A DNA stretch of 64,000 nucleotides from Saccharopolyspora gloriosae (GCF_014203325.1 NZ_JACHIV010000001.1:4155501-4219500), one strand, 5' to 3'; shown: positions 2,372-17,822, numbered from the stretch's first letter. The notes: generated from the sequence alone by a model not told the origin. Made by a program: numbers and translations.

Positions 2372-2446
2372 TCTACACGTATACGCAACCTAGAAGCGAG
2401 GTGAGCCCGAGTCAAGGGACCAACCACCCCCAACGCGCCTTGATCC

Positions 2447-2611
2447 TGTCAGCGGCGAAGCCGCTGAGCAGTGACCACGCACGCAGCCCGACCACCCGCG
2501 GGTTCTCAGCGGGCTTCTCGCGAGGACAGCTTTTTCCCTCGTGGCGGAGCCACTTGGGAAAAAGATCCCGCAGCGAGAAGCCCGCTGAGGTTCCGCCACC
2601 CGGACACCTCG
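2447..2611 (+). repeat. Structured intergenic repeat, copy 1 (class A)
   Basis: Hairpin 1 is CAGCGGC/GCCGCTG (2450-2466). The main stem pairs 2505-2521 with 2573-2589 over 17 perfect base pairs. Nested inside are CTTTTTCCC (2530-2538) with GGGAAAAAG (2556-2564), and an apical GTGGC-GGA-GCCAC (2541-2553). It lies between the gntR stop and the allB promoter, antisense to both genes. Seven related copies occur in the window. Confidence 0.9.
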
Positions 2612-2628
2612 CCAAAGCAAGAACAAAT

Positions 2629-3288
2629 TCAGAACGTCATACGCTGCAGGACCATTGTTCGGCTTGCTTGGACATGGCGTTGCGCGACTTCCCACGCGCG
2701 GGCGCCGTCGCCCGCCGCGACCGCGGCGTAGAGCTCGTCGTGCTCGGCGCACACCCGCTCCGGCTCCGGGTTCACCCGGAACAACCACGCCAACCGGCCG
2801 TGCAGCGGTTCCAGCATCGACGTGAGGAGTTCGTTGCGGGACAACGCGATGACCTCGTCGTGGAACGCGGTGTTGGCCTCCGACATGGCGTCCACGTCCG
2901 ACGAGTCCAGCGCGGCGCGCGCCTGCGCGGCCAGCCGCCCCAGCCGCCCCACGTCGTCGGCGTCGCTGAGCTGCGCCGCGAGCTTCGCGGCCAGCGCCTC
3001 CAACGCCTCGCGGACGTCGAAGAGCTCTTCCAGCTGCCGCCGGTCCAGGCTCCGGACGAACACGCCGCGCCGCCGCGGCAGCACCTCGACCAGCCCCGCG
3101 CTCTGCAGCATCCGGATCGCTTCGCGGACGGGCACCCGGGACACGCCGAACTCCGCGGCGAGCTCCTGCTCGAACAGCCGGTCACCGGGACGGAGGTGAC
3201 CATCGCTGATCCGCGCCTGCAGCGTGCCGTACACCTGGTCGCGCAGCGGGACGCGCGCCTCCGCGTCCGGCTCTTCTGTCACAGGCAC
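2629..3288 (-). CDS. GntR-family (FadR/FCD type) regulator, probable allantoin/glyoxylate repressor
   Basis: The protein has an N-terminal winged helix (PLRDQVYGTLQARISDGHLRPGDRL, with the recognition-helix region FGVSRVPVREAIRMLQSAGLVEV) and an all-helical FCD ligand domain with the metal-binding-type pattern FHDEVIALSRN...LF. I chose GTG 3286-3288 because AGGAGG lies five bases before it; a longer frame back to 3384 adds 32 Gly/Ala/Arg-rich residues without a ribosome site. It lies 112 bp downstream of gcl, in the same direction, suggesting co-transcription and feedback. AllR in E. coli is IclR-type, so this is a different regulator doing an analogous job. Control of allB, hyi and the NCS1 permease is inferred from shared palindromes. 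Confidence 0.85.
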   Translation of the reverse strand: MPVTEEPDAEARVPLRDQVYGTLQARISDGHLRPGDRLFEQELAAEFGVSRVPVREAIRMLQSAGLVEVLPRRRGVFVRSLDRRQLEELFDVREALEALAAKLAAQLSDADDVGRLGRLAAQARAALDSSDVDAMSEANTAFHDEVIALSRNELLTSMLEPLHGRLAWLFRVNPEPERVCAEHDELYAAVAAGDGARAWEVAQRHVQASRTMVLQRMTF

Positions 3289-3400
3289 AAGTTCCTCCTC
3301 GCCGGCTGTGCCCACCAGCGTAAGGCGTCCTCCCGGCGTGATCCCCGCAGCGGGGCGGGCGCGGCCCGCGGGTGCGGTCACCACCCGCGGGCCGGGGAAC

Positions 3401-5101
3401 TCAGCCGAGCGGCACCTCCTCGGGTTCGATCATCGCGTCGATCCGGATGCCGCGCGGGGTGTTCGCCTCCCGTTCGATCATCACTTCGACCAGCACCGGG
3501 CGGCTCGTCGCCACGGCCTCCTTGCGGGCCCACTCGATCGTCGTCGCGAGCTCACCGGGTTCGAACACGCGCCGCCCGGAGCAGCCGTAGGCCTCCATCA
3601 CCTTGACGTTGTCGGTGCCGTGGGTGTCGTAGTGGATGTCGACCTCGGTGTTCATCTCGTACCCGAGTTCCGCCTGCCGGATCAGCCCGAGGTACTCGTT
3701 GTTCAACATGATGATCACGAACGGGATGTCGTACTGCGCGGCCACGGCCAGCTCCTCGACGAGGAACTGGAAGCCGTAGTCGCCGACGACCGCCGCCACC
3801 TCCGCGCCGGGCTCGGCGGACTTCACGCCGATGGCCGCCGGGATCTCCCAGCCGAGCGGGCCCGCCTGCCCGCACACCTGGTAGTGGCGGGGCTTGTGCG
3901 CGGTCTGGAACTGACCGGACCAGATCTGGTAGAGCCCGATCGCGGTGACGAAGTAGGTGTCCGGGTCGAACAGCGCGTTGATCTCCCGGAACACCCGCGG
4001 TGCCTTGATCGGCACCGCGTCGTAGTGGTCGGGCCTGGTCAACGTCCGCTTCAGCTCACCGACGCGCCCGGCCCACGAGCCGTAGCGCTTCGTCGGTCCG
4101 CGGCGCTCGACCGCCTCCAGCAGCGCCGTCAGGAACAGGCCCGTGTCGGACACGACGCCCAGGTCGGGCCCGAAGACCTTGCCGATCTGGGTCGGCTCGA
4201 TGTCGACATGGATGAACTTGCGCGCCCCGCGGTAGACCTCCAGCGCGCCCGTGTGCCGGTCGCCGAACCGCGCGCCGAGCGCCAGCACCAGATCGGATTC
4301 GAGGAACGATTCGTTGCCGTAGCGCTGGCTGGTCTGGATGCCGGTCATCCCCGCGAACAGCTCGTGGTCCTCCGGGAACGAACCCTTGCCCATCAGCGTG
4401 GTCTGCACCGGGATGCCGAGCCGCTCGGCGAGCTCGCGCAGCTGCTCGTGGGCGTCTCCCAGCAGGACCCCTCCCCCGGCCAGCAGCAGCGGCCGGTCCG
4501 CTTCGAGCAGCATGTCCAGCGCCTTCTCCACCCGTGGCGGGTGCGGGTGCACGGCGGCGACGGGCAGCGGCGCGTCGATCTCGGGGTCCCAGTCGATCTC
4601 CTGCTGCTGGACGTCCAGCGGCAGGTCGATCAGGACCGGTCCGGGACGTCCGGAGCGGGCGGTGCGGAACGCCTCCCGGAAGATCCACGGTGCTTGGGCG
4701 GCTTCCTTGACCTGCACCGCCCATTTGGTGACGGGCTTGGCGATCTCCACGATGTCGACCGCTTGGAAGGCCTCCTGGTGCAGCTTCGAGGACACCGCTT
4801 GGCCGGTGATGCACAGCATCGGGATGGAATCGGCCTGCGCGGTGTAGAGGCCGGTGATCATGTTCGTGCCCGCCGGGCCGGAGGTGCCGATGGCGACGCC
4901 GACGCGCCCGTTGGTCCGCGCCCACCCGTCGGCCATGTGGGTGGCGCCCTCCTCGTGGCGCACGATGAGGTGCTTGATGTCGCGGTGTTCCAGCGCCGCG
5001 TACAGCGGGAGGATCGCGGCGCCGGGACAACCGAACGCCGTGTCGACTCCCTCGGATTCCAGGACGTCGACCACAGCCTGCATGACAGGGACTTTGGGCA
5101 T
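3401..5101 (-). CDS. gcl: Glyoxylate carboligase-like thiamine-diphosphate enzyme (tartronate-semialdehyde synthase)
   Basis: A 566-residue ThDP enzyme expected to join two glyoxylates into tartronate semialdehyde and CO2. Typical Gcl stretches are present: GTSGPAGTNMITGLY, SIPMLCITGQA, FQAVDIVEIAKPVTKW, SGRPGPVLIDLP, HVDIEPTQIGKVFGPDLG, CGQAGPLGWEIPAA and the ThDP motif GDYGFQF...NNEYLGL. Start ATG 5099-5101 follows GAGAGGAA; a longer frame to 5143 lacks support. E. coli Gcl is unusual in carrying Val51 where other ThDP enzymes have the catalytic Glu; as I recall that sequence, the aligned residue here is Glu50 (VRHEEGATH). It therefore looks like a divergent Gcl clade. The neighbours glxR and hyi support the assignment. 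Confidence 0.85.
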   Translation of the reverse strand: MPKVPVMQAVVDVLESEGVDTAFGCPGAAILPLYAALEHRDIKHLIVRHEEGATHMADGWARTNGRVGVAIGTSGPAGTNMITGLYTAQADSIPMLCITGQAVSSKLHQEAFQAVDIVEIAKPVTKWAVQVKEAAQAPWIFREAFRTARSGRPGPVLIDLPLDVQQQEIDWDPEIDAPLPVAAVHPHPPRVEKALDMLLEADRPLLLAGGGVLLGDAHEQLRELAERLGIPVQTTLMGKGSFPEDHELFAGMTGIQTSQRYGNESFLESDLVLALGARFGDRHTGALEVYRGARKFIHVDIEPTQIGKVFGPDLGVVSDTGLFLTALLEAVERRGPTKRYGSWAGRVGELKRTLTRPDHYDAVPIKAPRVFREINALFDPDTYFVTAIGLYQIWSGQFQTAHKPRHYQVCGQAGPLGWEIPAAIGVKSAEPGAEVAAVVGDYGFQFLVEELAVAAQYDIPFVIIMLNNEYLGLIRQAELGYEMNTEVDIHYDTHGTDNVKVMEAYGCSGRRVFEPGELATTIEWARKEAVATSRPVLVEVMIEREANTPRGIRIDAMIEPEEVPLG

Positions 5102-7753: not shown

Positions 7754-8476
7754 TCAGGGGCGGGGCGGCCAGTTGGTCATCTTCTTGGGGCGCGGCGGGG
7801 CGTACGTCCGCACCTTCGACGTCGTCAGCCCCAGCCGGACGAGCGATTCCGCGATCGTCACCGCCGCCGTGACCCCGTCGACCACGGGCACCCCGGTGCG
7901 TTCCACCACGCGCTCGGCGAGCCCCGACATGCCGCCGCACCCCAGGCAGATCACCTCGGCCCGGTCGTCCTCCACCGCGCGCACCGCCTGCTCGGCGATG
8001 GCGTCGACGGCCGCCGCCGGATCGCGGTCCAGGTCCAGCACGGCCATGCCGCTCGCCCGCACCGACGCGCACCGGTCGCTGAGCCCCGCCGCGCTGAGCC
8101 GGTCCTCGATCAGCGGAACCGTGCGGTCCAGGCTGGTCACCACCGAGTAGGAGCGCCCGACGAACTGGGCGGTACTCGCGGCGGCCTCGGTGATGTCCAC
8201 GACCGGGACGTCGAGCAGCTCCTGCAGCCCTTCCCTGCCGTGCTCGCCGTACCCGGCTTGGATGACGGCGTCGAACGGTTCCGGGTAGGCCCGGACCGCT
8301 TCCATCACCGCGACCGCCGCGAGGTAGCTCTCGTAGTTGCCCTCCACGGATTCCGCGCCGAAGGACGGCGTCAGCGGCACGATCTCGGTGCCGGGGGCCG
8401 CGACGCCCGCGGCCTGCTCGCCGATGGACTCGGTGATGGTCGCGGTCGTGTTGACGTTGACGACGAGAATGCGCAC
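7754..8476 (-). CDS. Hydantoin/allantoin racemase family protein lacking the first catalytic cysteine
   Basis: A 240-residue Asp/Glu/hydantoin racemase-fold protein. Members that racemise allantoin or hydantoins use two cysteines, one in an A-C-F-G-D loop and one in L-G-C-x-G-M. Here the second is intact (C180 in CLGCGGM) but the first position is Gly75 (AGYGEHG). In arylmalonate decarboxylase, a fold relative, a Gly/Cys arrangement is used for decarboxylation instead of two-base racemisation. Location 39 bp downstream of the NCS1 permease and next to allB/allE supports a role in allantoin metabolism, but racemase activity is doubtful. Start GTG 8474-8476 with a GGAGGAG ribosome site. Confidence 0.7.
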   Translation of the reverse strand: MRILVVNVNTTATITESIGEQAAGVAAPGTEIVPLTPSFGAESVEGNYESYLAAVAVMEAVRAYPEPFDAVIQAGYGEHGREGLQELLDVPVVDITEAAASTAQFVGRSYSVVTSLDRTVPLIEDRLSAAGLSDRCASVRASGMAVLDLDRDPAAAVDAIAEQAVRAVEDDRAEVICLGCGGMSGLAERVVERTGVPVVDGVTAAVTIAESLVRLGLTTSKVRTYAPPRPKKMTNWPPRP

Positions 8477-8515
8477 GGTCCTACTCCTCCTCCAGCTGTG
8501 CCGGGCGTTCCCGGC

Positions 8516-9991
8516 TCACTCCGCCGCCACCGCGATCGACTCGCCGTCCACGTCCCGCCCGTCGAGATGGCGATCACCGATGACGGCGTAGATCACGGCA
8601 CCGAGGGCCGCGCCGATGAACCAGGAGAACCCGGACGCGGCGCCGAAGACCGGCACCAGCGCGACCACGACCGCGATCGCCGCGGCGGGCAGGAATGCCC
8701 AGACCGCCTTCGGGTTGTACCCGCGCCGGTAGTAGTACTCGCCTTCCGCGTCCTCGGTGTAGAGGTCCGGGACGTTCACGCGGGTCTTCCGCAGCAGCCA
8801 GTAGTCCGCCATGATCACGCCGAACAGCGGGCCGAGCAGCGCGCCGAGACCGCCGAGGAAGTAGTTCACCACGACCGGGCTGTCGTAGAGGTTCCACGGC
8901 AGGATCACCAGCCCGATCACGGCGCTGACCAGGCCGGCCCGCCGGAAGTTCAGGTGCCTCGGGAACAGGTTCACCAGCACGTAGATCGGCGCCACGAAGT
9001 TCGCCAGCAGGTTGACCGCGATCGTCAGGATGATGAGCGCGACCGACGCGGTCGCGAGCAGAACCATGTTGGGGATCGTCTGCACGATGTCGGTCGGGCT
9101 GGTGATCACCCGTCCGTCCAGCTTGAACTGCGCGCCGCTGAGCACGACGACGATGACGGCGAAGAAGAGCATGTTCACCGGGATGCCGACCAGGTTGCCG
9201 CGCACGATCGACCGGCGGCTCTTGGCCGAGCGGGTGAAGTCGCAGAAGTTCAGGACGAACGTCCCGTAGATCACCACCCAGAGCGCGGCGCCTTCCAGCA
9301 CCTTCAGCCACATCGCCCCACCGGTGAGCGGCTGCGCCGTGGACAACGAGATCGACCAGTCCGCGCGCCAGAACATCCAGAGCGCCAAGCCGCACATCGT
9401 GATCAGCGTCGTGGGCGCCGCGATCGCCATGTACCGGCGGATCACGTGCATGCCGTAGCTGACGATGAGGACCTGCACGGCCCACAGCACGAGGAACGTG
9501 ATCCAGCCGAGCAGCGACAGGCCCAGCACCGACCGGTCCTGCAACCCGCCGAGTGCGGGGAACATGGCCACCAGCAGCGTGTTGAGCACCGAGGACGCGA
9601 GGTAGGTCTGGATGCCGAACCACGCGATGGCGACGATGCCGCGCACGGCCGCCGGGAGCTGCGCTCCCCTGGTCCCGAACGCGATGCGGCTCATGACCGG
9701 GAAGGGCACACCCGCCTTGTGGCCCATGTAGCCGGACAGCGTCAGCAGCAGGAACAGCAGGACGGAAGCGAGGGCGAAGGCGGCGAGGATGCCCCACACG
9801 TTCAGCCCGAGGGCGAACAGGCCGATCGCGAACGCGTAGTTGCCGAGGCTGTGCACGTCGTTGGCCCAGAGCGTGAAGACGTTGTAGGCGCCCCAGCGGC
9901 GCCCTTCCTTCTTCGTCGGGGCCAGGTCGTAGCTGTACAAGCGGGCGCTCGGGGCGCCTTCCGGAGCTGACGGGCGGTCCGTGGCAGTCAT
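8516..9991 (-). CDS. NCS1-family nucleobase/allantoin permease
   Basis: A 491-residue integral membrane protein with about 12 hydrophobic segments and NCS1 hallmarks: the N-terminal NVFTLWANDVHSLGNYAFAIGLF, GHKAGVPFPVMSRIAFGTRGAQLPAAVRGIVAIAWFGIQTYL, and a late GPLFGVIMADYWLLRK. The family imports purines, hydantoins or allantoin with a cation. Given allB, allE and the racemase homologue, allantoin or a related ureide is the likely substrate (inference). ATG 9989-9991 is preceded by GGAGG. It is the first gene of a leftward pair and shares a divergent promoter region with allE that contains a GntR-type palindrome. Confidence 0.88.
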   Translation of the reverse strand: MTATDRPSAPEGAPSARLYSYDLAPTKKEGRRWGAYNVFTLWANDVHSLGNYAFAIGLFALGLNVWGILAAFALASVLLFLLLTLSGYMGHKAGVPFPVMSRIAFGTRGAQLPAAVRGIVAIAWFGIQTYLASSVLNTLLVAMFPALGGLQDRSVLGLSLLGWITFLVLWAVQVLIVSYGMHVIRRYMAIAAPTTLITMCGLALWMFWRADWSISLSTAQPLTGGAMWLKVLEGAALWVVIYGTFVLNFCDFTRSAKSRRSIVRGNLVGIPVNMLFFAVIVVVLSGAQFKLDGRVITSPTDIVQTIPNMVLLATASVALIILTIAVNLLANFVAPIYVLVNLFPRHLNFRRAGLVSAVIGLVILPWNLYDSPVVVNYFLGGLGALLGPLFGVIMADYWLLRKTRVNVPDLYTEDAEGEYYYRRGYNPKAVWAFLPAAAIAVVVALVPVFGAASGFSWFIGAALGAVIYAVIGDRHLDGRDVDGESIAVAAE

Positions 9992-10039
9992 CGAACCGCC
10001 TCCAAGCTTGCGCTCGATGTGTCCATGATGTGAGCCGAT

Positions 10040-10061
10040 GTTTCCGCTATGTGAAAGTATA
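10040..10061 (-). promoter_or_regulatory. NCS1 permease promoter with GntR-type operator
   Basis: GTTTCCGCTATGTGAAAGT (10040-10058) is a TTTC...GAAA palindrome overlapping a leftward TATACT -10 (10056-10061), the same arrangement as at allB. The 300-bp divergent region also carries a rightward TATACA (10237-10242) that could serve allE. Confidence 0.55.
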
Positions 10062-10290
10062 CGACTGTGATTCGGAAACGGTAGCCATCGACCTGATCGC
10101 CGTCAACAGTCACCGGAGCGCGCTCGCCGAGCCGGTAAGTCGACCACGAATTCCCCCGCGGCGGGAAGTGCGGGAAGGCGAATCCGCCGCGCACGCTCGC
10201 CGTCCCCGGCCCTCGCCACCGGCCCGGCCGGTTGTGTATACATAAACGCACCCCCGGCTTCGCGCCCGCTCCACACGAGGAAGGGATCAC

Positions 10291-11109
10291 TTGAACCAGC
10301 CGAGCTACTTCTCGCCCGAGGGCGGCCTGCCCTCGCAGTCCACGATGCTCACCGACCGCGCGGTCGTCACCGCGTCGTACACGGTCATCCCGCGCGGCGT
10401 GCTCCGCGACATCGTCACCAGCAACCTCCCCGGGTGGGACCGCACCAGGGCGTGGATCCTCGCCAAGCCGATCCAGGGGTTCTCGACGACGTTCGCGCAG
10501 TACCTCGTCGAGGTGTCACCGGGAGGCGGCAGCACCCGTCCCGAACCGGAGAGCGGCGTCGAATCGGTCGTGTTCGTGCTCTCCGGCGACCTGCGGCTGG
10601 TCATCGACGGCACCCGGCACGACCTCGCACCCGGCGGCTACGCCTACCTCCCGGCCGGTGCCGACTGGTCGGTGGCCAACGACACCGACGCGCTCGCCAG
10701 CTTCCAGTGGGTCCGCAAGGCCTACGAACCGCTCGAAGGCCACGCGCCCGCGGCGTTCGCCGTCCAGGAGCAAGACGTCGCGCCCACGCCGATGCCCGGC
10801 ACCGACGGGACCTGGGCGACCACCCGGTTCGTCGACCCGAACGACCTCGCCCACGACATGCACGTCAACATCGTCACGTTCGAACCCGGCGCGGTCATCC
10901 CGTTCGCCGAGACGCACGTGATGGAGCACGGGATCTACGTGCTCGAAGGCAAGGCCGTCTACCGGCTCAACGACGACTGGGTGGAGGTCCAGGCCGGCGA
11001 CTTCATGTGGTTGCGCGCCTTCTGCCCGCAGGCCTGCTACGCGGGCGGCCCCGGCAAGTTCCGGTACCTGCTCTACAAGGACGTCAACCGCCAGATCAAG
11101 CTGACCTGA
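10291..11109 (+). CDS. allE: (S)-ureidoglycine aminohydrolase
   Basis: A 272-residue double-cupin protein that converts (S)-ureidoglycine to (S)-ureidoglycolate and ammonia, the step after allantoate hydrolysis. The N-terminal cupin carries SGDLRLVIDG...PGGYAYLPAG. The C-terminal cupin holds the Mn-binding set E207, H209, H213 (ETHVMEHG) and Q247 (CPQACYAGG). Length and both cupins fit AllE/YlbA. Start TTG 10291 follows GAGGAAGGG. It is divergent from the NCS1 permease and followed 99 bp later by a LysR gene. Allantoate amidohydrolase and ureidoglycolate dehydrogenase or lyase are not encoded here, so the pathway is incomplete in this window. Confidence 0.93.
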   Translation: MNQPSYFSPEGGLPSQSTMLTDRAVVTASYTVIPRGVLRDIVTSNLPGWDRTRAWILAKPIQGFSTTFAQYLVEVSPGGGSTRPEPESGVESVVFVLSGDLRLVIDGTRHDLAPGGYAYLPAGADWSVANDTDALASFQWVRKAYEPLEGHAPAAFAVQEQDVAPTPMPGTDGTWATTRFVDPNDLAHDMHVNIVTFEPGAVIPFAETHVMEHGIYVLEGKAVYRLNDDWVEVQAGDFMWLRAFCPQACYAGGPGKFRYLLYKDVNRQIKLT

Positions 11110-11208: not shown

Positions 11209-12117
11209 ATGACCACGCCCGGCTTCACGCTCGTCCAGCTCCGCTACTTCATCGCCGCCGCCGAGCGCGGCTCGATGACCGCCGCCGCCGACGAGCTGCG
11301 CATCGCCCAGTCGGCGGTCTCCTCCGCCATCGCCAACCTGGAGCACGAGCTGCGCCTGCAGCTGTTCATCCGGCACCGGGCGCGCGGGCTGACCCTCACC
11401 TCCGCCGGAGAACGCCTGCTGGCCCAGGCGCGGGACCTGCTGACCCGCGCCCGCGACGTCGAGGCGGAGGCCCGCGGCAGCGGCGGCACCCTGTCGGGCC
11501 CGGTGACGATCGGCTGCTTCGTGACGCTCGCGCCGTACTACCTCCCGGCCCTGTTCGCGGCCTGCGACGAGCACCACCCGGACATCGAGCTGAACGTGGT
11601 CGAAGCCGAAGCCGAGCACCTGCACCGGGCGCTGCGCAGCGGCGGCATCGACTTCGCGCTCACCTACGGCCTGAGCGCGCCCGCCGACACCGACCTGCAC
11701 CGGGAGACCATCGCCCTGGCCCCGGCCTACGTCATCGTCCCGGCCGGTCACCGCCTCGCGGACCGGGCCACGGTCGATCTCGCCGAGCTGGCGCCCGACC
11801 CGATGGTGCTGCTGGACCTGCCCTACAGCCGGGACTACTTCCGCGCCGTCGTGGCGGCCTCGGGCAGCGCTCCCGACGTGCGCTACCGCAGCCAGAGCTA
11901 CGAGACGGTGCGCTCGCTGGTGGCGCAGGGCTTGGGGTACTCCCTGCTCAACCAGCGGCCGCGGACCGATCAGACCTACGGCGGCGGCGAGGTCGTGGCG
12001 CTCGAACTGCGCGGCGACCGCCCTCCGCTGGAAGTGACGATCACCGCGGTGGACGGGGTGCGCCAGACCGCCCGCGCCCAGGCCGTCATGGACCTCCTGC
12101 GCGCCATCCCCTCCTGA
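11209..12117 (+). CDS. LysR-family transcriptional regulator
   Basis: A 302-residue LTTR with an N-terminal winged HTH (LVQLRYFIAAAERGSMTAAADELRIAQSAVSSAIANLEHELRLQLFIRHRARGLTLTSAGERLL) and a periplasmic-binding-protein-like effector domain from about residue 95 (GPVTIGCFVTLAPYYLPALF...). The ligand is unknown. Start ATG 11209 follows GAGGGTCGGT. It lies between allE and an MFS carrier, all rightward. A perfect 9-bp-arm palindrome begins 15 bp after its stop, before the MFS gene, and is a good LTTR target. It may control the MFS carrier and the monooxygenase operon at 13823 through a shared element. Confidence 0.9.
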   Translation: MTTPGFTLVQLRYFIAAAERGSMTAAADELRIAQSAVSSAIANLEHELRLQLFIRHRARGLTLTSAGERLLAQARDLLTRARDVEAEARGSGGTLSGPVTIGCFVTLAPYYLPALFAACDEHHPDIELNVVEAEAEHLHRALRSGGIDFALTYGLSAPADTDLHRETIALAPAYVIVPAGHRLADRATVDLAELAPDPMVLLDLPYSRDYFRAVVAASGSAPDVRYRSQSYETVRSLVAQGLGYSLLNQRPRTDQTYGGGEVVALELRGDRPPLEVTITAVDGVRQTARAQAVMDLLRAIPS

Positions 12118-12132
12118 GCGACGGCATCTGAT

Positions 12133-12170
12133 TTTCCGCTGCACCACAGCGGAAACATCTATTGGACGAA
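12133..12170 (+). promoter_or_regulatory. LysR-type palindrome plus shared promoter element before the MFS gene
   Basis: TTTCCGCTG (12133-12141) and CAGCGGAAA (12147-12155) form perfect 9-bp arms around CACCA. The right arm leads into AACATCTATTGGACGAA, which recurs with few changes at 13724-13741 ahead of the monooxygenase operon. TTGGAC (12163-12168) may act as a -35. Binding by the LysR protein just upstream is inferred. Confidence 0.5.
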
Positions 12171-12271: not shown

Positions 12272-13645
12272 ATGCCCACCTCGCACAACGACCCCGCGAC
12301 GCCGGAGGTCGAGGTGGCCGCCGACGCGGTCGCGCTGCGCCGCAGCGTCGCGGCCGGAGCCGTCGGCGTGTTCGTGCACTGGTTCGACTGGGCGGCCTAC
12401 GCCTACCTCGCCGGAACCGTCGCGACGGTGTTCTTCCCGGCCGAGAACAGCACGACCGGGCTGCTGGCCGTGTTCGGCGTGTTCGCGGTGTCGTTCGGCA
12501 TCCGCCCCATCGGCGCCGCGGTGTTCGGGCCGCTGGGCGACAAGATCGGCCGCAAGCGCACCCTGTCGCTGGTCATCTTCACGATGTCGGGGGCGACGCT
12601 GGGGATCGGCCTGCTGCCCGGCTACGCCTCGATCGGCATCGCCGCTCCGGTGCTGCTGGTGGTCCTGCGGATGGTGCAGGGCTTCGCCGCAGGCGGGGAA
12701 TTCGGCAGCGCGGCGAGCTTCCTGTCCGAGAGCGCACCCCGGCGGCGACGCGGCTTCGGCGTCAGCTGGCTGGAAGTCGGCTCGCTGCTGGGTTTCCTGG
12801 CCGGCTCCTTCACGTTCCTGCTGCTGTCGGTGGGACTCGACGACGGGCAGCTGACCTCGTGGGGCTGGCGCATCCCGTTCCTCATCTCCGCGCCGCTGGG
12901 CATCATCGGCTTCATCATCCGCAGCAAGATCGAGGACACCCCGGAGTACCGGGCGCTCGAAGCCAACGACACCGTCCCGCGCAGCCCGGCGAAGGAGTTG
13001 CTGCGCACCAACAAGCGGGAACTGCTCCAGGCCGCCGGTCTGATGACGGCCATGCACGTGCCGTTCTACGTGGTGCTGACCTACCTGGTCACCTACGAGA
13101 CCGATCACCTCGGGCACTCCGACGGCAGCGCCGCGCTGCTGTCGACGGCGATCTCGCTGCTGGGACTGGTGCTGGTCCCGGTGTTCGGACGCCTGTCCGA
13201 CCGCGTCGGGCGCAAGCCGGTGTTCGTCGGTGCCTGCGCGGCGCTGCTGGTGCTGGCCACGCCCGCGTTCCTGCTCATGCGCTCCGGATCGGCCGGGACC
13301 TGGGTCGCCGGTCTGCTGCTGGGCGTGGTCCTCGCGGCGATCCTCGGCACCTACGCGGTGTGGTCGGCGGAGATCTTCCCGACGCGCACCCGCCAGAGCG
13401 GCCTGTCCATCGCGTACAACGTGACCGCCGCGCTGTTCGCCGGGACGGTGCCCTACGTGATGACCGTGCTCATCTCCGCGACCGGCAGCACCCTCGTGCC
13501 CGGCCCGTACATGATGGTGTTCGCCGTCGGCGGCCTCATCGCCGCGCTGTCGCTCAAGGAGACCGCCGGGAACGCGCTGCTGCGCCCGGAGGACGTCGGC
13601 CCCGCACCGGTAGGACGACGGCGGGACCCGGTCGACGCGCGGTAG
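12272..13645 (+). CDS. MFS transporter, metabolite:H+ symporter type
   Basis: A 457-residue, 12-segment major facilitator. The early VHWFDWAAYAYLAGTVATVFFP, the conserved GPLGDKIGRKRTL loop, RMVQGFAAGGEFGSAASFLSE and a second-half RLSDRVGRKPVF fit the MHS subfamily that imports organic acids, betaines or similar small molecules. ATG 12272 has a strong AGGAGG; a longer frame from 12185 adds 29 residues without membrane or domain features. It lies between the LysR gene and the monooxygenase operon and shares an upstream element with the latter, so it probably imports that operon's substrate. Confidence 0.88.
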   Translation: MPTSHNDPATPEVEVAADAVALRRSVAAGAVGVFVHWFDWAAYAYLAGTVATVFFPAENSTTGLLAVFGVFAVSFGIRPIGAAVFGPLGDKIGRKRTLSLVIFTMSGATLGIGLLPGYASIGIAAPVLLVVLRMVQGFAAGGEFGSAASFLSESAPRRRRGFGVSWLEVGSLLGFLAGSFTFLLLSVGLDDGQLTSWGWRIPFLISAPLGIIGFIIRSKIEDTPEYRALEANDTVPRSPAKELLRTNKRELLQAAGLMTAMHVPFYVVLTYLVTYETDHLGHSDGSAALLSTAISLLGLVLVPVFGRLSDRVGRKPVFVGACAALLVLATPAFLLMRSGSAGTWVAGLLLGVVLAAILGTYAVWSAEIFPTRTRQSGLSIAYNVTAALFAGTVPYVMTVLISATGSTLVPGPYMMVFAVGGLIAALSLKETAGNALLRPEDVGPAPVGRRRDPVDAR

Positions 13646-13716: not shown

Positions 13717-13741
13717 CAGCGAGAACATCTGTTGGACGGAA
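13717..13741 (+). promoter_or_regulatory. Element shared with the MFS promoter, before the monooxygenase operon
   Basis: CAGCGAGAACATCTGTTGGA (13717-13736) and the following CGGAA match the segment at 12147-12170 in about 20 of 24 positions. Both copies end 80-100 bp before the start codon of their gene. The common core is AACATCTRTTGGACGRA. The simplest reading is a common activator site or promoter. Confidence 0.5.
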
Positions 13742-13822: not shown

Positions 13823-15100
13823 ATGTCGATCGAAGAGACCGAGGTGGTCGTCGTCGGGGCCGGCCAGGCCGGTGTGGCGATGAGCGAACACCTCGGTGCG
13901 CACGGGGTGCCGCACCTCGTGCTCGAACGGGACCGCATCGCCGAGCGGTGGCGTTCGCAGCGGTGGGATTCCCTGGTGGCCAACGGACCCGCGTGGCACG
14001 ACCGCTTCCCCGGACTGGAATTCGCCGCGGTGGCCCCCGATTCCTTCGCTTCGAAGGACGAGGTCGCGGACTACTTCGCCGAGTACGCGCGGCGGATCGA
14101 CGCACCGATCCGGTGCGGCGTCGAGGTGACCTCGGTGCGCAAGAACGCCGGCGCGCCCGGATTCCGGGTCGAGACCTCGGACGGCGCCATCGACGCGCGC
14201 TTCGTCGTGGCCGCGACCGGACCGTTCCAGCGGCCGGTGATCCCGCCGATCGTCCCGGACGACGCCGTCGCCACGCAGCTGCATTCGAGCGGGTACCGCA
14301 ATCCCGGCCGGCTGCCCGAGGGCGCGGTCCTCGTCGTCGGAGCCGGTTCGTCGGGCGTGCAGATCGCCGAGGAACTGCGCCGGTCCGGTCGCCGCGTGCT
14401 GCTGTCGGTCGGCCCGCACGACCGCCCTCCCCGCCGGTACCGGGGCCGCGACTTCTGCTGGTGGCTGGGCGTGCTCGGGTTCTGGGACGCCGACACCCCG
14501 CCGCAGGGCGCCGAGCACGTGACCATCGCGGTCAGCGGAGCCGGTGGCGGGCGCACGGTGGACTTCCGCGCCCTCGCGGACGCGGGGATCGAGCTGGTCG
14601 GCATGACGTCCTCGTACGACGGCGGGAAGCTGCGCTTCGCACCGGACCTCGCCGCGAACATCGAGCTCGGCGACGCGAAGCACCTCGACCTGCTGCGCGC
14701 CGCGGACGAGTACGTCGAGCGCAACGGCCTCGACCTGCCCGCGGAACCGGAAGCGCACGTCCTCGGCCCGCTGCCGGGCAGCGCGACCGATCCCCTGCTC
14801 GAACTCGACCTGGCCGAAGCCGATGTCACCTCGATCGTCTGGGCCACCGGCTTCGCCACCGACTACGGCTGGTTGCAGGTCGACGCGTTCGACGAGAACG
14901 GCCGGCCGGATCAGCGCCGCGGCGTGTCCGCCGAAGCCGGCGTGTACTTCCTGGGCCTGCCCTGGTTGTCGCGCCGCGGGTCCAGCTTCATCTGGGGCGT
15001 GTGGCACGACGCCCGCTACGTCGCCGACCACATCTCCACCCAGCGGGGTTACCTCGCCCAGCACACCCCCGACCGGTCCACCGACAGGAGCAGCCGATGA
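13823..15100 (+). CDS. FAD-dependent monooxygenase (CzcO/FMO-like)
   Basis: A 425-residue flavoprotein with an FAD Rossmann motif VVVVGAGQAGVAMSEHL at the N-terminus, a second nucleotide-binding motif VLVVGAGSSGVQIAEEL near residue 175 for NADPH, and a C-terminal IVWATGFATDYGWLQVDAFDE typical of FMO/Baeyer-Villiger relatives. The second-half FIWGVWHDARYVADHI is common in amine- and heterocycle-oxidising members. ATG 13823 follows GGAGGTTGAC. Its stop overlaps the next start (ATGA), the first of three such overlaps joining it to the RidA, DUF1028 and M20 genes. The substrate is unknown; an N-containing compound is suggested by the neighbours. Confidence 0.85.
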   Translation: MSIEETEVVVVGAGQAGVAMSEHLGAHGVPHLVLERDRIAERWRSQRWDSLVANGPAWHDRFPGLEFAAVAPDSFASKDEVADYFAEYARRIDAPIRCGVEVTSVRKNAGAPGFRVETSDGAIDARFVVAATGPFQRPVIPPIVPDDAVATQLHSSGYRNPGRLPEGAVLVVGAGSSGVQIAEELRRSGRRVLLSVGPHDRPPRRYRGRDFCWWLGVLGFWDADTPPQGAEHVTIAVSGAGGGRTVDFRALADAGIELVGMTSSYDGGKLRFAPDLAANIELGDAKHLDLLRAADEYVERNGLDLPAEPEAHVLGPLPGSATDPLLELDLAEADVTSIVWATGFATDYGWLQVDAFDENGRPDQRRGVSAEAGVYFLGLPWLSRRGSSFIWGVWHDARYVADHISTQRGYLAQHTPDRSTDRSSR

Positions 15101-15564
15101 CCTCCACGAGCGAGGGGAACCAGGTGAACGCCCCGATCGTCGCAGGCGGACACACGCGGATCCGCCCCTTCAACACCCGCGACACCTATCCCGAGCAGAG
15201 CCTGGACAACGACCTGTGCCAGGCGGTCGTCGCCGGGAACACGATCTACGTGCGCGGGCAGATCGGGCAGGACCTCGACACCAGCGAATCGGTCGGCGTC
15301 GGCGACGTCGCGGCCCAGGCCGAGCGGGCGATGGCCAACATCGACCTGCTGCTGCGGGAGTCCGGGGCTCGGATGGAGCACCTCGTCAAGCTGACGATCT
15401 ACCTCGTCGATCCGCGCTACCGCGAAGCGGTCTACCGCGTCGTGGGCCGCTGGACCCGCGGCGTGCACCCGATCTCCACCGGTGTGGTGGTCTCCGCGCT
15501 CGCCCGGCCCGAGTGGCTGGTCGAGGTCGACGCCGTCGCCGTGCTCCCCGGAGGTGCGCGATGA
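15097..15564 (+). CDS. RidA/YjgF-family protein lacking the substrate arginine
   Basis: A 155-residue Rid-fold protein: QAVVAGNTIYVRGQIG, QAERAMANIDLLLRESGARMEHLVKLTIYLVD, and VHPISTGVVVSALARPEWLVEVDAVAVL. RidA proper uses an arginine in P-A-R-S to hold the carboxylate of 2-aminoacrylate; here the segment is PIST (residues 125-128), so the arginine is missing and enamine deaminase activity in the classical sense is unlikely. Such forms belong to other Rid groups of unknown function, often inside catabolic operons. Start ATG 15097 overlaps the upstream stop, and the stop overlaps the DUF1028 start, giving translational coupling. Confidence 0.88.
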   Translation: MTSTSEGNQVNAPIVAGGHTRIRPFNTRDTYPEQSLDNDLCQAVVAGNTIYVRGQIGQDLDTSESVGVGDVAAQAERAMANIDLLLRESGARMEHLVKLTIYLVDPRYREAVYRVVGRWTRGVHPISTGVVVSALARPEWLVEVDAVAVLPGGAR

Positions 15565-16229
15565 CGTTCTCCGTGCTGGGCACCGACGGCACCGGCGCCG
15601 TCGGCATCGCCGTGACGTCCTCCAGCCCCGCCGTGGCCGCCCGCTGCATCCACCTGCGCGCGGGCGTGGGCGGGGCCTCCTCGCAGAACGTCACCGACCC
15701 GCGGCTGGGGTCGGAGCTCCTGGACGCGCTGGCGTCCGGAGCCGGGGCGCGCGACGCGCTGGCCGCGGTCGTCGAGGGCCGCGAGCTGATCGAGCACCGC
15801 CAGCTCACCGTCCTCGAACCGGGCGGCGACGGCGCCGTGTACTCCGGCGCCGAATCCCTCGGCGTGCACCGGGATCGCGTCGGTGCGCGGGTCGTCGCCG
15901 CCGGGAACATGCTGCGCTCGCCCGAGGTCGTCGACGCCGTCGTGGACTCCTTCGAGAATTCCGGCGGTGAGCTCGAAGACCGCCTGCTGCGCGCGCTCGA
16001 AGCCGGTTCCGCCGCCGGTGGCGAGGCGGGCCCGGTGCACTCCGCCGGGCTCTCCGTCGTGCGCGAAGTGGCGTGGCGCGAAACCGACCTGCGGGTCGAC
16101 TGGAGCGACGACCCGATCGGCGACCTCCGGGCGCTGCTCGACCGCTGGCTGCCGCAGCGCGACGACTACGTGACGCGCGCGCTCAACCCCGCTTCCGCGC
16201 CGTCGTACGGCGTCCCCGGGGACGAGTGA
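15561..16229 (+). CDS. DUF1028 family protein (Ntn-hydrolase-like fold)
   Basis: A 222-residue protein matching the DUF1028 pattern: N-terminal TFSVLGTDGTGAVGIAVTSSSPAVAARCIHLRAGVGGASSQNVTDPRLG, later GAESLGVHRDRVGARVVAAGNML. The fold is related to N-terminal nucleophile hydrolases; no activity is established to my knowledge. Family members often sit beside Rid proteins and M20 peptidases. ATG 15561 overlaps the RidA stop, with GGAGG upstream, and the stop overlaps the M20 start (TGATG). Residues after about 180 (DWSDDPIGDLRALLDRWLPQRDDY) match the usual C-terminal segment. Confidence 0.85.
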   Translation: MTFSVLGTDGTGAVGIAVTSSSPAVAARCIHLRAGVGGASSQNVTDPRLGSELLDALASGAGARDALAAVVEGRELIEHRQLTVLEPGGDGAVYSGAESLGVHRDRVGARVVAAGNMLRSPEVVDAVVDSFENSGGELEDRLLRALEAGSAAGGEAGPVHSAGLSVVREVAWRETDLRVDWSDDPIGDLRALLDRWLPQRDDYVTRALNPASAPSYGVPGDE

Positions 16230-17371
16230 TGGCCGGGATCGACGCGGCGAAGAAGCGGGCCGCCGGCACCGTCGCCGGTGATGCCGAACGGCTCATCCGG
16301 CTCTCCGAACAGCTCCACGCCCACCCGGAAACGGCGTGGGAGGAGCACCGCTCGGCGCGCTGGGTGGCCGATTCCCTGGCGGAGGCGGGCTTCACGATCA
16401 CGCCCGCGTACCTCGGATTCGACACCGCGTTCCTCGCGACCTTCGGCAGCGGCCCGTTCCGCCTCGGGCTCTGCGCGGAGTACGACGCGCTGCCCGGCCT
16501 CGGGCACGCGTGCGGGCACAACCTGATCGCGGCGATCACCGCGGGCGCCGCGCGGGCCCTGGCACCGCTCGCGGACACCGCCGGGCTGACCATCGAGGTC
16601 TACGGCACTCCCGCCGAGGAGGGCGGTGGCGGCAAGGTCGAACTGCTGGAGCGCGGCGCGTTCGCCGGGCTCGACCTGGCGATGATGGCGCACCCGGCTC
16701 CCGTCGACGTCGCGGAGGCGGAACCGTTCGCCGTGTCGCACTCGCACGTCTCCTTCCGCGGCAAGGCTTCCCACGCCGCGGCCTACCCCGAGCAGGGCGT
16801 CAACGCGGCCGACGCGTTCACCGTCGCCCAGGTCGCGATCGGCCTGCTGCGCCAGCAGTTGCCGCACACCGTGCGCGTCCACGGCGTGATGACCAACGGC
16901 GGTGAGGCTCCGAACGCGATCCCCGCGCGCACCGAAGGGCGCTGGTACGTCCGGGCCGAGGACTCCGCGCAGCTGGCCGAGACCGAGGAGAAGGTTTGGC
17001 GCTGCTTCGAAGCGGGCGCCCTCGCCACCGGGGCCTCGCTCGAGGTCACGCCGGAGAGCAAGCCCTACGCGGAGTTCCGCACCTACCGGCCGGCGCTGGA
17101 CGCCTACGTCCGCAACGCCGAGGAGCTCGGCCGCACCTTCGGCCGGGACCCGGTGGCGCGGCGGATGAACCGCGCGTCCACCGACATGGGCAACGTGTCC
17201 CAGGTGGTGCCGGCGATCCACCCCTACGTGGGGATCGGTTCGCTCCCGGCGCTGAACCACCAGCCGGAGTTCGCCGCCCACTGCGTCGGCGGTGACGCCG
17301 AGAAGGCCCTCGTGGACGCCGCCACCGCGCTCGCGTGGACCGCCCTCGACGTCGCGACCGGCGTCCGCTGA
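16229..17371 (+). CDS. M20 (M20D) family amidohydrolase/aminoacylase
   Basis: A 380-residue dinuclear metal hydrolase. The metal loop LCAEYDALPGLGHACGHN (C95, H97) and TPAEEGGGGK place it with M20D enzymes such as AbgB, HipO and IAA-amino-acid hydrolases; a dimerisation domain follows (FRGKASHAAAYPEQGVNAADAF), and FAAHCVGGDAEKAL ends the catalytic domain. It lacks the arrangement expected of allantoate amidohydrolase, despite lying near allB and allE. Start ATG 16229 overlaps the DUF1028 stop. As last gene of the coupled operon it may hydrolyse an amide released by the monooxygenase, or open the substrate before oxidation; the order is not known. Confidence 0.85.
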   Translation: MAGIDAAKKRAAGTVAGDAERLIRLSEQLHAHPETAWEEHRSARWVADSLAEAGFTITPAYLGFDTAFLATFGSGPFRLGLCAEYDALPGLGHACGHNLIAAITAGAARALAPLADTAGLTIEVYGTPAEEGGGGKVELLERGAFAGLDLAMMAHPAPVDVAEAEPFAVSHSHVSFRGKASHAAAYPEQGVNAADAFTVAQVAIGLLRQQLPHTVRVHGVMTNGGEAPNAIPARTEGRWYVRAEDSAQLAETEEKVWRCFEAGALATGASLEVTPESKPYAEFRTYRPALDAYVRNAEELGRTFGRDPVARRMNRASTDMGNVSQVVPAIHPYVGIGSLPALNHQPEFAAHCVGGDAEKALVDAATALAWTALDVATGVR

Positions 17372-17447
17372 ACACCCGTCGTCCGGTCGCGCCACCCGCG
17401 CCGGACGACGGGTCACCACCGTCGGGGGTGACGATTACCCTCGCGCC

Positions 17448-17822
17448 ATGACGCCCCACGAGCTCAAAGCCGCGTGCCTGGCCATGCCCGGCGCCCGGGA
17501 GGAGTTCCCGTTCGACGAGCACAACAGCGTCTTCAAGGTCGCCGGGAAGCTCTTCGCGATCAGCAGGCTCGACGCGGATCCGCTGCGGGTGAGCCTGAAG
17601 TGCGAGCCGGACCTGGCGGTGTCCCTGCGCACGAGCTACCCGAGCGCCGTCGGCCCCGGCTACCACCTGAACAAGCGCCACTGGAACACCGTCGTCGTCA
17701 ACGACGCGGTCCCGGACCCCCTCGTCCGCGACATGATCGAGGACTCCTACGACCTGGTCGTCGCCGGCCTGCCGCGCCGCGAACAGGACAAGCTCCACTG
17801 GCTCAAGATCCGCCACGGCTGA
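17448..17822 (+). CDS. MmcQ/YjbR family protein
   Basis: A 124-residue protein of the YjbR (DUF419, CyaY-like) fold: AACLAMPGAREEFPFDEHNSVFKVAGKLFAI, then SLKCEPDLAVSLRTSYPSAVGPGYHLNKRHWNTVVVND, ending SYDLVVAGLP. Members are small cytoplasmic proteins proposed to bind DNA; no specific role is established. Start ATG 17448 is chosen because the upstream frame overlaps the preceding gene and has no family similarity. It stands alone, followed by repeat copy 4 and a convergent gene. Confidence 0.85.
   Translation: MTPHELKAACLAMPGAREEFPFDEHNSVFKVAGKLFAISRLDADPLRVSLKCEPDLAVSLRTSYPSAVGPGYHLNKRHWNTVVVNDAVPDPLVRDMIEDSYDLVVAGLPRREQDKLHWLKIRHG

Follow-up and report, generated by a model that had tools for sequence, protein, structure and literature searches.

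Within a 64,000-nucleotide stretch of the Saccharopolyspora gloriosae genome (GCF_014203325.1, NZ_JACHIV010000001.1:4155501-4219500; hereafter the window), we identified a four-gene operon at positions 13823-17371 that is very probably (probability about 0.9) an actinobacterial, Saccharopolyspora-like operon of the hinFLHG type for the catabolism of imidazole-4-acetate. This identity is proposed because of the gene order, a HinK-like LysR regulator, a shared sequence element, and the genes for histamine dehydrogenase (PDB 3K30), aldehyde dehydrogenase, and aspartase that are linked to related blocks. A sequence-only reading of the stretch had stated that no described pathway has exactly this set; that was wrong, as the set and its order are those of hinFLHG, a characterized pathway that forms the branch of histamine catabolism from imidazole-4-acetate to aspartate. 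The chemistry it had suggested, with a flavin monooxygenase (FMO) oxidizing an N-containing compound, hydrolases cleaving it, and the Rid or DUF1028 protein handling an unstable intermediate, fits the hin steps, and only the claim of an undescribed pathway falls. The pathway itself is thus already known; what is new is the exchange of the M20 enzyme, the exchange of FMO for an HpaB-type enzyme, the predicted operator, and the reading of DUF1028 as an N-terminal nucleophile (Ntn) hydrolase.

Operon layout and match to the hin pathway

The following features were identified in the cluster, all on the plus strand:

11209-12117, +: LysR-type regulator, HinK-like (family search and match to the solved HinK), predicted imidazole-4-acetate sensor
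12153-12168, +: AAACATCTATTGGACG element before the MFS gene (16-base form), predicted operator or promoter element
12272-13645, +: MFS metabolite/H+ symporter of the 2A0106/ProP group (TIGR00883, 369 bits, below the cutoff of 443), predicted imidazoleacetate importer
13723-13738, +: GAACATCTGTTGGACG element before the FMO gene, second copy (16-base form)
13823-15100, +: HinF, FAD monooxygenase (FMO), predicted imidazoleacetate 4-monooxygenase (EC 1.14.13.5)
15097-15564, +: HinL, Rid-family protein (PF01042), predicted deaminase of N-formimino-L-aspartate
15561-16229, +: HinH, DUF1028 (PF06267, 199 bits), predicted Ntn-type amidohydrolase with Thr2 as nucleophile
16229-17371, +: M20D amidohydrolase, predicted N-formyl-L-aspartate deformylase, at the position of the ArgE-type HinG

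Families were assigned with Pfam and NCBIfam profiles and agree with those named in the sequence-only reading. Its description of four genes overlapping stop to start, with a LysR gene and an MFS carrier upstream, was likewise borne out: the reading frames overlap by 4 bases at FMO/Rid (ATGA), 4 bases at Rid/DUF1028 (ATGA), and 1 base at DUF1028/M20 (TGATG), and the LysR and MFS genes precede FMO on the same strand, with the MFS start set at the ATG following an AGGAGG. The FMO belongs to the Pyr_redox_3/FMO-like family, and the M20 protein scored above the TIGR01891 (amidohydrolase) cutoff (196 versus 154 bits).

According to PMC8231116, which cites de la Torre et al. 2018 (doi 10.1111/1462-2920.14118) and also Wang et al. 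2021, hinFLHG (hin2) of Pseudomonas putida U converts imidazole-4-acetate to aspartate, and PA5393-PA5390 of Pseudomonas aeruginosa is its equivalent. In PMC6467879, HinF is an FAD-monooxygenase (EC 1.14.13.5), HinL an enamine deaminase, HinH an amidase, and HinG an amidase (EC 3.5.1.8); this paper also reports hin homologues in Brevibacterium strains able to grow on histamine, with identities between P. putida and Brevibacterium of 60-63%, 61-65%, and 48-50% for HinF, HinL, and HinH, respectively. Close to these ranges, the window proteins were 73% (FMO), 66% (Rid), and 51% (DUF1028) identical to those of a Burkholderia multivorans cluster, a plasmid locus annotated FMO-RidA-DUF1028-ArgE-LysR. 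From gene order and elimination, with the B. multivorans annotation in support, we infer that HinH is the DUF1028 protein; in the literature collection searched, no paper used the word DUF1028.

Conservation of the block and linked histamine genes

A scan of bacterial genomes identified 391 relatives of this DUF1028 subfamily, and the best 80 loci, of actinobacterial origin, were analyzed with our own gene calls and clustering. The block recurred widely in this comparison with other genomes, which the sequence-only reading had proposed: Rid lay directly upstream of DUF1028 in 78 of 80 loci, with an overlap of exactly 4 bases in 68 of these 78, M20 lay directly downstream in 79, and FMO was present in 73. 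The cluster's MFS gene was found in 38 loci. The closest relative was a locus of Saccharopolyspora sp. NFXS83 (L031), and the block was present in 3 of 5 relatives from the same genus and also in further genera of its family. The gene order thus extends beyond this strain. DUF1028 proteins from other subfamilies, at 30-40% identity, lacked FMO, Rid, and M20 neighbors within 1.5 kb on each side, and the association is therefore specific to this subfamily.

All 7 loci lacking FMO (L059, L071, L086, L089, L100, L101, and L108) encoded an HpaB-type monooxygenase, accompanied in 6 of them by a flavin reductase gene of one shared cluster, and FMO and HpaB occurred together in none of the 80 loci. 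One of the 7, L089, carried the full histamine set apart from HpaB replacing FMO.

Extra conserved members were also found. Aldehyde dehydrogenase was linked in 41 of the 80 loci and aspartate ammonia-lyase in 37, and at least 1 of 3 amine-deaminating enzymes, namely copper amine oxidase (14 loci), a histamine-dehydrogenase-like (OYE/trimethylamine-dehydrogenase-like) enzyme (14 loci), and class III aminotransferase (9 loci), was identified in 37. TetR and APC permease genes were each present in 26 loci, NCS1 permease genes in 24, and GMC oxidoreductase genes in 9. The OYE-like enzyme of the Pimelobacter simplex locus L054 is the histamine dehydrogenase of PDB 3K30, matching over all 690 residues (1576 bits). 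Read in order, the linked genes spell a putative route from histamine through imidazole acetaldehyde to imidazole-4-acetate, then through the four-gene block to aspartate and on to fumarate; the enzymes leading from amine to aldehyde to acid, the block, and aspartase together point to histamine-to-fumarate catabolism.

GMC oxidoreductase stood beside an NCS1 permease and/or aldehyde dehydrogenase in L117 (Acetobacter pasteurianus plasmid), L034-L036, L045, L047, and L048, where an alcohol such as imidazole ethanol perhaps feeds the same pathway. The hin cluster of the Burkholderia multivorans locus L118 was flanked by FdhD and an FdhF/YdeP oxidoreductase (2406-4459 and 15340-17619); compare formate, a predicted product of the hin pathway. 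The Klebsiella pneumoniae plasmid pUUH239.2 (NC_016966; L116:8387-21694) and an Escherichia coli plasmid (L111) encoded an FMO 62% identical to that of the window, Rid, DUF1028, and an ArgE-type M20, together with LysR, an ABC transporter, quinone oxidoreductase, GST, type II dehydroquinase, hydroxypyruvate reductase, and hydroxyacid oxidase. Counts for both DUF1028 and FMO matched across 105 Klebsiella and 7 E. coli plasmid records, and this set is probably a cassette for the catabolism of an imidazole compound on clinical plasmids.

Predicted operator and proposed division of the catalytic steps

Among solved structures, 2 P. aeruginosa entries, 6M5F (HinK) and 3FZV, led the matches to the window LysR with 194 bits each, the next LysR reaching 111 bits. 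The match to 6M5F had a Z score of 27 and 35-36% identity over 284 residues. HinK responds to imidazole-4-acetate according to PMC8231116, and the window LysR is predicted by analogy to sense the same compound.

The 2 elements preceding the MFS and FMO genes share the pattern AACATCT[AG]TTGGAC, a 14-base core (AACATCTRTTGGAC elements). The element was spotted by eye and followed by pattern searches; a general repeat search of the region returned coding-sequence repeats only. In a search of the 6.8 Mb genome allowing 2 mismatches, the only 2 perfect core copies were both in this cluster, and weaker matches were no commoner than those of a reversed-pattern control. In the scan of the loci, which spanned several genera, nearly all sites with at most 1 mismatch were intergenic and preceded an FMO, Rid, MFS, or flavin-reductase gene; at 2 mismatches, sites were also present ahead of aspartase (L032) and NCS1 (L095) genes. 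A shuffle test confined to the window was weak, with at least 2 matches in 6 of 100 shuffles, and the operator claim draws on the comparative and whole-genome scans. From its position and conservation, the element is predicted to be part of a LysR binding site or promoter.

The structure model of the DUF1028 protein (pLDDT 95.8) matched the DUF1028 entry 2IMH (Z score 33), HslV (12.5), and proteasome beta subunits (12). The alignment began at residue 2 of the model versus chain residue 1 in several proteasome and HslV entries, and Thr2 was invariant in all 44 DUF1028 sequences aligned. Given this fold, the alignment of residue 2 to the mature N-terminus, and the invariance, Thr2, bared by removal of Met1, is likely the nucleophile of an amide hydrolase, and its target bond is likely the ring amide of the imidazolone.

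When the window Rid was compared with UK114 (6TCC), the Arg of the PAR motif, which we take to be the essential Arg of RidA, faced a Ser. The conserved RidA Arg is needed for hydrolysis of 2-imino acids (PMC4433059), and the window Rid lacks it at the aligned position. A P[IVC]STG signature, standing where RidA has its Arg region, was found by scan in 82 of 83 Rid proteins, with the remaining one also reading PISTG. The replaced Arg and this near-universal signature fit a substrate other than 2-imino acids, for example a formimino group. In the M20 family, the motifs HACGHN, AEYDALPG, PAEE, and NHQ were kept in most members, and the solved relatives were a PM20D2-like Xaa-Arg dipeptidase and HmrA.

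In the proposed mechanism, the MFS carrier would import imidazole-4-acetate, and HinF, by presumed orthology with the P. putida enzyme, for which this function is reported, would use O2 and NAD(P)H to hydroxylate the ring, giving 4-imidazolone-5-acetate. The DUF1028 protein, through Thr2, would most likely hydrolyze the ring amide to N-formimino-L-aspartate, Rid would free ammonia to leave N-formyl-L-aspartate, and the M20D enzyme would yield formate and L-aspartate, with an imidazole-4-acetate-sensing LysR presumably acting at the elements before MFS and FMO.

We slightly favor this exact split of the 2 middle steps between DUF1028 and Rid over its closest competitor, a permuted order of the Rid, DUF1028, and M20 roles in which Rid opens or rearranges the imidazolone and DUF1028 hydrolyzes the formimino or formyl group. 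The permuted order is a serious contender that falls somewhat short of even odds. A point in its favor is that imidazolone acetate may hydrolyze spontaneously in the classical pathway; the Ser of the window Rid and the bare designation of HinH as an amidase in PMC6467879 also count for it. Ntn hydrolases cleave amides, however, and Rid proteins free ammonia from imines, which makes the unpermuted assignment the simplest. The evidence leans slightly toward an actinobacterial pathway with interchangeable parts, in which M20D stands for the ArgE-type HinG, HpaB and flavin reductase stand for HinF in some lineages, a single LysR operator is conserved, and DUF1028 acts as a Thr2 Ntn hydrolase opening the imidazolone ring.

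Probable substrate in this strain and comparison with known systems

Several observations weigh against the assignment to hin. The window M20 is not orthologous to ArgE-type proteins (best E value 0.005, 29% identity over 124 residues), the equation of HinH with DUF1028 draws on order and elimination, and the Rid gene was missing nearby in 2 loci (L071 and L086). Copper amine oxidase was absent from the window genome, which also lacked a close histamine dehydrogenase (best match 28%), a near relative of the linked aminotransferase (33-39%), and an aspartase adjoining the operon; an aspartase/fumarase-type search of the genome gave a single full-length match (44%), which may be the housekeeping fumarase. 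Because no close deaminating enzyme of these kinds and no adjoining aspartase were found, histamine itself may not be a growth substrate of this strain. The same missing amine-deaminating enzymes suggest that the strain probably imports imidazole-4-acetate; the operon would then serve nitrogen supply.

These absences would also suit a related imidazole or other N-heterocycle acid undergoing the same ring oxygenation, ring opening, deamination, and deacylation, as would the MFS carrier in place of APC/NCS1 permeases, and the GMC oxidoreductase of some loci and the hydroxyacid oxidase of proteobacterial ones hint at varied inputs. We consider such a substrate unlikely, since the core proteins are strongly conserved whether or not a locus carries histamine enzymes (median identity: FMO 75%, Rid 83%, DUF1028 59%, and M20 71%) and the LysR and predicted site are shared with histamine-linked loci. 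A new, unrelated pathway that resembles hin through family membership alone is highly improbable: the FMO, Rid, and M20 families are large and the window FMO scores below the cutoff of its nearest NCBIfam model, but hin is matched by the order of the genes, the regulator, the predicted operator, and the linked histamine dehydrogenase.

Other candidates were rejected. The nearest NCBIfam model of the FMO, TIGR04046 (MSMEG_0569 family flavin oxidoreductase), presumably belongs to a nitrilase (Nit1C) cluster; the FMO scored 363 bits, below the cutoff of 498, and no other such genes were present. Homarine degradation, an idea from ABC and Rieske neighbors in Caballeronia, gained nothing from a literature search, and the actinobacterial neighbors point to histamine. 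Upstream in the window, at 7754-11109, we identified an Asp/Glu/hydantoin racemase, an allantoin-type NCS1 permease, and a ureidoglycine aminohydrolase (UGHY, 10291-11109). A functional link to these allantoin-type genes was rejected, as none was common to the loci of relatives, and this neighborhood is apparently independent of the operon.

The operon, once labeled an unknown pathway, gains a concrete, testable function, as does a DUF1028 subfamily that is present in many Actinobacteria and on plasmids of proteobacteria. Likely second kinds of imidazoleacetate monooxygenase and formylaspartate deformylase are named, the predicted operator can be used for regulon searches, and a histamine/imidazoleacetate utilization cassette is indicated on many Klebsiella plasmids. 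Ring opening by DUF1028, if true, would be the first defined reaction for this unnamed family.

Compared with known systems, the window shares with hinFLHG of P. putida U and PA5393-PA5390 the order monooxygenase, Rid, DUF1028 (by elimination), and M20 superfamily, a HinK-type LysR regulator, and the predicted substrate imidazole-4-acetate. In contrast to Pseudomonas, where hinK sits elsewhere according to PMC8231116, LysR and MFS adjoin the operon, no hinACD-like histamine genes are nearby, and the cluster has no aspartase (hinI). BLAST showed no significant similarity between its M20D (TIGR01891) gene and the ArgE-type genes of proteobacterial clusters; as both are subfamilies of one superfamily, the operon is therefore classed as a variant cassette of the hin pathway and not a gene-for-gene orthologue. 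The E. coli rut pyrimidine pathway follows a similar logic of flavin monooxygenase, Rid, and amidohydrolase, but its gene set and linked genes differ, and it was rejected with the window Rid far below the RutC model cutoff (31 versus 169 bits). Like the window, the putative histamine pathway of Brevibacterium L261, S111, and S22 is actinobacterial with clustered HinF, HinL, and HinH homologues, whereas histamine oxidase and aspartase homologues are also present there; the locus tag of its HinG homologue is far removed (PMC6467879), in line with an M20 swap of the kind proposed for the window. The P. simplex (Nocardioides simplex) locus L054 shares FMO, Rid-DUF1028-M20, and LysR with the window and differs in its divergently transcribed FMO and in a complete histamine route of dehydrogenase, aldehyde dehydrogenase, permeases, and aspartase.

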